This document shows, in pieces, positions 20,230 to 21,357 of a DNA stretch of 33,920 nt. Each line of letters opens with the position of its first letter. Within the stretch, counting starts at the first letter, position 1. Origin of the DNA: Blastocatellia bacterium (lineage in GTDB: Bacteria > Acidobacteriota > Blastocatellia > HR10); assembly GCA_035573895.1 (NCBI GenBank), contig DATLZR010000164.1:1-33920 (forward strand). The letters are read 5' to 3'. Position numbers and translations under genes: made by a program. Below the pieces are notes generated by a model that was given only the letters and a program-made list of their open reading frames with translations, searched no databases and had not been told where the DNA came from.

Positions 20230-21357
20230 ATGGATAAACCCGACTATTACGCGATTCTCGGCGTCAGTCGAGAGGCGACACCGCAGGAGATTGATCGCGC
20301 CTATCGCAAGCTCGCTCGCCGATACCATCCCGAACTCAATCCCGGCGATGAGGAGGCGGAGGAGATCTTCCGTCGCATCGCTGAGGCCTATGAGGTGCTG
20401 AGCGATCCCCGAAAGCGCCAGATTTACGACCGGTACGGCGAGTATCGAGAGGATCTGGACCCCGAGGCGCGGCCTGCCGCTGACGTTCTTTTCGAGGGTT
20501 TTGACTTTGGGTTAGGAGAGAAGTCCTTCGGCGATATTTTTGAAGAGTTGTTCGGCGAGGAGGCGGCTCGGAAAAAGGAGCCCCAGCGCGGAGCCGATCT
20601 GGAGGTTCCGCTGGCGGTGACATTTGAACAGGCTCTGACCGGGACGACGGCGACGGTGACGGTGCGACGGAGTGAAACCTGTACGATGTGTGGCGGTCGT
20701 GGAGAGACGAGCGAGCCTCCGACGACATGTTTTCGCTGTGGCGGATCGGGACGCAAACAGATCAGTCGGGGGCGGCTGCGGTTGAGCGCCCGTTGCGACC
20801 ACTGTCAAGGAACCGGTCGCAGTCATCCCCTCTGCCCCCGATGTCGCGGCGAGACGCGCACGCCGCTTACCGAGACGATCACCGTTCAGATTCCGCCCGG
20901 CGTGGATACCGGTTCGCGCATTCGTGTTCCTGAGAAAGGCGAAGCCGGCCTGTACGGAGGTCCTCCGGGCGATCTCTACATCGTCACCAACGTGGGGACC
21001 CACCCGTTTTTCGTGCGCAAAGGCGACAACATCTACTGCACCGTGCCCATCACTGTTGCCGAGGCCATTCTGGGAGCGAAGATCGAGGTCCCGACGATTC
21101 GCGGGAAAGCCTGGCTGCGAATCCCTCCGGGAACGCATTCGGGGCAGGTCTTTCGCCTTCACGAACAAGGGGTGCCGAGCTTGCGGGGAGATGTTTGTGG
21201 CGACCAGTATGTCGAAGTCAAGATCGTCATCCCTCGGTTGGTGGATCAACGATCGCGCGAGCTGATTCGGGAATTCGAGGAGCGGAATCCGGAGAATCCT
21301 CGCGCCGAGCTGGACCGGATCGCGCCGATTATCCGGCAGGCCGACGGCGAGTCGTGA
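20230..21357 (+). CDS. DnaJ-family co-chaperone with HPE in place of HPD
   Basis: 375 residues in class A DnaJ layout. The J-domain (5-70) opens [25 protein letters not shown], but its universal HPD tripeptide reads His33-Pro34-Glu35. A short acidic linker, not a Gly/Phe-rich one, leads to the zinc domain with eight Cys (151, 154, 167, 170, 189, 192, 202, 205) in four CxxC repeats. The C-terminal substrate-binding domains follow ([22 protein letters not shown] and on). DnaJ delivers clients to DnaK and stimulates its ATPase through HPD, so Asp to Glu may weaken or retune that contact. No dnaK or grpE is nearby; a canonical DnaJ may exist elsewhere. I see no clear ribosome binding site. It precedes phoH by 69 nt. 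Confidence 0.9.

Follow-up and report, generated by a model that had tools for sequence, protein, structure and literature searches.

HPE in place of HPD, together with further docking-face changes, in a class A DnaJ of a single-DnaK bacterial family suggests a weakened rather than a dead helper of DnaK

The window analysed here, a stretch of 33,920 nucleotides from a Blastocatellia bacterium, contains a class A DnaJ gene, an orthologue of DnaJ2, as a complete open reading frame of 375 codons at 20230-21357 on the plus strand. As the preliminary description had reported, the codons CAT CCC GAA stand in frame at 20326-20334, giving HPE instead of HPD in the J-domain. The protein may be read as an orphaned second class A DnaJ whose ancestral operon and DnaK partner were lost and which would now work with the sole DnaK of the cell through a weakened J-domain. 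We give this reading, which is drawn from sequence comparison, an even chance of being right. The gene, its parts and the genes downstream of it are:

20230..21357, plus strand: class A DnaJ gene (DnaJ2 orthologue), 375 aa
20242..20430, plus strand: J-domain (PF00226, 96.8 bits here and 92.8 bits in a Pfam scan of the protein)
20293..20295, plus strand: codon for Asp22, where all 54 other tabulated J-domain proteins (JDPs) have K or R
20326..20334, plus strand: HPE, residues 33-35, for HPD
20371..20373, plus strand: codon for Arg48, where all 54 other tabulated JDPs have K and the sister genus has E
20440..20586, plus strand: acidic linker, residues 71-119, replacing the Gly/Phe region, with residues 79-107 disordered in the model
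20680..20853, plus strand: eight-Cys zinc domain, residues 151-208
21427..22422, plus strand: phoH, the next downstream gene in 6 of 6 family genomes
22439..22894, plus strand: ybeY (PF02130)
22905..24200, plus strand: CorC-type gene (CNNM and CBS, by Pfam)
24197..25141, plus strand: era-like GTPase (MMR_HSR1 plus KH_2)

The protein shares with canonical class A DnaJ (E. coli DnaJ; TIGR02349 and NF008035) the J-domain, the eight-Cys zinc domain and the two C-terminal beta domains, but has HPE for HPD, D22 for R22, R48 for K48 and an acidic linker for the Gly/Phe region. It passes the cut-off of NF008035 (373.6 against 338) and misses the equivalog cut-off of TIGR02349 (369.8 against 377.2). 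A Pfam scan found the C-terminal client-binding domains to be present (DnaJ_C, PF01556, 165.5 bits), with the central zinc domain scoring 32.4 bits, marginally below its cut-off of 32.7. The four CxxCxGxG zinc motifs of class A DnaJ are all there, and their eight cysteines (151/154, 167/170, 189/192 and 202/205) are invariant across 30 aligned orthologues. An AlphaFold2 model made from 30 sequences (mean pLDDT 81.2, pTM 0.51) is confident over the N-terminal J-domain (pLDDT 81-95 per 10-residue block) and from residue 120 to ~330, is disordered at 79-107 and is weak beyond ~340; its best fold matches in the PDB are DnaJ/Hsp40 structures, headed by 6jzb, a DnaJ. The Gly/Phe-rich region of class A DnaJ is missing, and the 49 residues of the linker (71-119) include 15 D/E, 6 K/R, 5 G and 6 F, for a net charge of -9 as against only -1 to -3 in the eight non-family orthologues compared. 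The preliminary description was therefore right about the zinc cysteines, the C-terminal domains and the acidic linker. Its statement that all other features are intact holds for the cysteines and C-terminal domains but is too strong, because the J-domain docking positions 22 and 48 are altered as well.

The family was sampled through six genomes of two genera, and HPE was found in five of these, with HPD in the sixth (G001, locus L009). The window encodes residue 35 by GAA, the four HPE genes of the sister genus by GAG and L009 by GAT. Outside the family all 33 DnaJ2 orthologues read HPD, and an orthologue search of 58 genomes returned 30 loci, with HPD at all 24 that lie beyond the order; the conservation check proposed for Glu35 gave Glu in five of six family genomes and Asp in the orthologues read outside the family. 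The named DnaJ loci found in the family-alignment scan, whose peptide patterns permitted E or D, were HPD in 80 of 80 cases among the matches listed (68 by script, 12 by eye). At the DNA level, the pattern for YHPExNP occurred at 12 places in 162 genomes of the class (five being this DnaJ in the five family genomes, the other seven lying in frames judged by eye not to be J-proteins) and a longer HPE pattern matched, across 396 genomes of the phylum, in the own genome, in G002 and in one non-class-A JDP of G420, these patterns not being exhaustive, as their GAY forms recovered 43 of 57 (YHPExNP) and 37 of 57 (longer pattern) HPD JDPs. The JDP of G420 (L208, ~1.5 kb into the locus), a second HPE protein in the phylum, is a short J-domain protein that reads AYAKLAEKYHPERN, with class A features absent from the part read. 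A literature search that had most subscription papers outside its coverage found no study of HPE in class A DnaJ.

The available text of PMC8215388 describes R22, K26, R27, K48 and K51 as basic J-domain residues that position it on E206, D211, E217 and D477 of DnaK, with a salt bridge between K48 and D477, and has D35 bonding R167 and Q378. All 54 non-family JDPs of our comparison table (33 DnaJ2, 15 canonical DnaJ and 6 CbpA types, from the own genome and relatives) have K or R at position 22, D at 35 and K at 48. At position 22 the six family members, with the window first, have D,T,T,T,T,T; at 35 they have E,E,E,E,E,D and at 48 R,E,E,E,E,E, while H33, P34 and N37 are invariant and positions 26 and 27 still basic in all six. 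The HPD protein L009 keeps T22 and E48 together with D35, and therefore E35 alone may be neutral. Nor is K48 required in every JDP, since a small JDP of the own genome (L004, on C110), omitted from the table, combines HPD and K22 with D at 48.

The J-domain of the family is under purifying selection. Among the sister-genus orthologues its dN/dS is 0.06-0.12, with 0.06-0.09 in the C-terminal part, and canonical DnaJ, read in three of the same genomes, gives 0-0.01 for the J-domain. Selection specifically relaxed on the J-domain was considered and rejected (~0.09 against ~0.01 in canonical DnaJ, Fisher p 0.13 on disjoint pairs, several control pairs being saturated in dS), and there is no measurable difference from other DnaJ2s (Fisher p 0.82). 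The domain is thus still constrained, much as in other DnaJ2s, and its unusual changes lie on the stem of the family.

The own genome encodes four J-proteins, namely a canonical class A DnaJ (C52), a CbpA-type JDP near dnaK (C15), the small JDP of C110, which appears by eye to be membrane-bound, and the window DnaJ. The search for other dnaJ and dnaK genes that had been proposed therefore gave three further JDPs, all reading HPD, and one full-length Hsp70, a DnaK. No second, HscC-type Hsp70 was found in the own genome, its two other PF00012 matches being weak (41.5 and 27.5 bits). Each of the ten genomes of the order has a single DnaK-grade match scoring >400 bits, truncated by a contig end in G004 and G005; weaker Hsp70-like proteins occur in addition in G009 (266 bits) and G006 (112 bits). 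For comparison, dnaK paralogs are given for 31.6% of 38 Acidobacteria genomes in the accessible part of PMC11019930.

In a quick tree of 61 JDPs, made with the third HPD residue masked and with SH-aLRT supports, the six family proteins, the window's among them, make up one clade (99) nested in a larger DnaJ2 clade (95) that is separate from the groups of canonical DnaJ and CbpA. The DnaJ2 orthologues of the class (L014, L016 and L028, for example) belong to this larger clade and are 51-58% identical to the window protein over its whole length. For the window protein, the rest of the order (G006-G009) offers best matches of only 42-47% identity; three of these matches fall in the canonical group, that of G009 is unplaced, and G007 is 78% complete. 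The masked tree needs a minimum of two changes between HPD and HPE. Because L009 nests with L012 (support 84), the history most naturally assumed is one D-to-E change where the family arose and a later single reversion in L009; separate D-to-E changes within the family are also conceivable.

The DnaJ2 orthologues of the class differ from the window gene not only in their HPD, K/R22 and K48 but also in their position. In 20 of 20 class genomes beyond the order (G010-G029, by eye; G026 shows the dnaK end only, at a contig edge) DnaJ2 starts 0.2-0.9 kb after the dnaK match on the same strand, whereas in all six family genomes it is followed by phoH and is not encoded after dnaK. The downstream order of phoH, ybeY, CorC-type and era-like genes is repeated in L185 and L187 (by eye), and at ten non-family phoH loci no J-domain frame was found on the phoH strand within the 1.5-kb flanks. 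The conserved block is downstream only: upstream of dnaJ2 the window has an ABC-2 transporter gene, and L185, L186 and L187 of the sister genus have a long ORF of 866-916 aa, of unknown family, directly before dnaJ2. Elsewhere in the window, a gene for an elongation factor G-type GTPase (Pfam EFG_III, EFG_IV and EFG_C; 13082-15211, minus strand) lies amid ordinary housekeeping genes, and no match to CIRCE-like or HAIR-like operator patterns, with up to 3 mismatches allowed, was found within the window. The own dnaK has Hsp20-like, CbpA-type and ClpB-like genes and a divergent MerR/HspR-like gene as neighbours (by eye), with a 211-aa ORF with a very acidic middle (L198, on C15, 3959-4594, minus strand) between dnaK and the CbpA-type JDP. 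The zinc domain is absent from the DnaJ2 orthologue in 6 of the 20 class genomes G010-G029; these dnaK-adjacent proteins (L136, L143, L147, L149, L151 and L156), class A turned class B, remain 55-70% identical to the window protein in their C-terminal part.

A DnaK tree that included E. coli HscC was distorted by the long branch of that protein and was rebuilt without it, the fragment L161 being left out. The DnaKs of the order group at 100/100 with the CbpA-paired DnaK of G023, a genome that also carries a clade-A DnaK beside its own DnaJ2. Joining the order's DnaKs to clade A was rejected (p-AU 9.5e-05), and no clade-A DnaK was found in the family. Given this placement, the ancestral DnaK partner of the window DnaJ has probably gone from the lineage. 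On the DnaK side of the contact, residues R167, N170, E206, E217, Q378, L391, P419 and D477 are unchanged in all eight DnaKs of the order, and a change at the partners of D35 (R167 and Q378), looked for in the same eight, was not seen. The loop with E. coli D211 is missing from the order's DnaKs and from all 21 clade-A DnaKs alike.

Under the reading favoured here, a dnaK-linked DnaJ2 of the clade-A type would have moved to a place before phoH, and the sole remaining DnaK is of another clade and stands beside a CbpA-type JDP. On the stem to the family the DnaK-docking face was altered at K22 to D/T, D35 to E and K48 to R/E, and the linker turned acidic too. The zinc and C-terminal domains would presumably bind clients in the usual class A manner, and E35, one methylene longer, may still reach R167 and Q378 of DnaK but would dock more weakly, so that clients would be held longer, the three HPD JDPs handing theirs over to the shared DnaK more readily. 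E35 would contribute to such a weakening no more than residues 22 and 48 do, and what fits best is that HPE is a mild part of a wider detuning in a DnaJ that still functions, and not an inactivation. Against weakening, the K48R of the window keeps the charge. The change of partner and that of the J-domain are a single evolutionary event, and their link is therefore a correlation with n = 1; a link to PhoH and YbeY may be surmised.

It is also possible, though we consider it somewhat unlikely, that the swap was nearly neutral, with E doing the work of D and the window DnaJ stimulating the sole DnaK normally. The change is conservative and takes one base, one family member has D, the J-domain is as constrained as in other DnaJ2s, and a recent review, as far as its available text goes, calls HPE the "only replacement tolerated" for HPD (PMC13254874). 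The invariance of D35 in the 54 tabulated JDPs and in the 80 named loci among the matches listed points the other way, and therefore E would seldom be neutral; the altered positions 22 and 48 also speak against it.

A J-domain that no longer stimulates DnaK, in a protein that merely holds clients, is the sense in which a client-holding co-chaperone had first been suggested, and we regard it as unlikely, the suggestion being weakly supported at best. Three docking positions are altered and the linker is acidic, and in other JDPs stimulation is lost when HPD becomes HPN or QPD, according to the portions available of PMC13254874 and PMC8215388. Type IV or pseudo-JDPs (DnaJB13 with HPL, Pam16 with DKE) likewise have an altered HPD in a recognisable J-domain. 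Their replacements are non-conservative, as the definition in the accessible text of PMC13254874 has it, whereas the window protein keeps H and P and changes only D to E. A dead J-domain is further made unlikely by the tolerance of HPE stated in that review, and by the retention of H33, P34, N37 and the basic residues 26 and 27 in all six family members under purifying selection, by the D of L009 in G001, and by HPE being the motif of DjlC, which stimulates HscC (PMC8215388, available text).

That last pair bears on the proposal that the window DnaJ is tuned to a particular DnaK. HPE is known in class C JDPs paired with a divergent Hsp70 (PMC13254874, in the part available), and E. coli DjlB and DjlC share it with the window DnaJ (DjlC reads CHPETDP), DjlC being a tail-anchored class C protein with HscC as its dedicated divergent Hsp70 (PMC8215388, in the part available). 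The window protein is instead of class A, and since a DnaK is the one full-length Hsp70 of its genome, tuning in the DjlC/HscC sense lacks a second Hsp70 as partner there, with a milder form left open by residue 388 (E. coli numbering) of the DnaK interdomain linker, on which the J-domain docks. This residue is E in six of six family DnaKs (L005, L150, L153, L157, L162 and L163, two of them partial) and D in the four other DnaKs of the order and in all 21 of clade A; E. coli HscC likewise has E388, together with R167, Q378 and S477. A less strict count over 104 distinct DnaK-like frames, with a filter that missed HscC and the sister-genus DnaKs (which were read directly), gave D in 96, G in 5 and E in 3, these three being the own DnaK twice (once as a fragment of it) and L092 once.

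The E388 found across the family could mean co-adaptation rather than weakening. In one version, which we think improbable, loss of the ancestral DnaK would have been followed by the reshaping of a class A DnaJ into a slow-release, low-stimulation protein, marked by E35, the loss of a basic residue at 22, the altered 48 and the acidic linker, which would be co-adapted with the single E388 DnaK and serve one specific task, which might be quality control of RNA or ribosomes together with the adjoining PhoH and YbeY. Were this so, HPE plus E388 would be a recurring lock-and-key of J-proteins and Hsp70s, reached independently in DjlC/HscC. A simpler version, in which D388E of the family DnaK answers D35E of the J-domain in a milder counterpart of DjlC/HscC, appears improbable too. 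The distribution of E388 agrees with it, but G001 combines an E388 DnaK with an HPD DnaJ, as does L092, all three further JDPs of the own genome read HPD, and residue 388 has 0 occurrences as a named J-contact in the available text of PMC8215388. A decaying gene or an assembly error is hardly credible: HPD does occur in one of six family genomes and in all orthologues read outside the family, the sign that had been named for a read error, but that is refuted by HPE in five independent family assemblies with two different Glu codons, GAA and GAG, and the gene, as the preliminary description had also held, is not decaying, with the 375-aa frame intact and dN/dS well under 1.

HPD is the textbook invariant of J-proteins, and here HPE is conserved in a class A DnaJ within a bacterial family with a single DnaK, accompanied by a natural HPD relative, two more contact changes and a matching change in the DnaK linker. 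Whether deviations from HPD are accidents or selected is a question posed in the text available of the recent review (PMC13254874), and the natural pairs of HPE and HPD sequences found here make it testable. For this family, the comparisons above suggest that the window DnaJ may be a weakened rather than a dead helper of DnaK.
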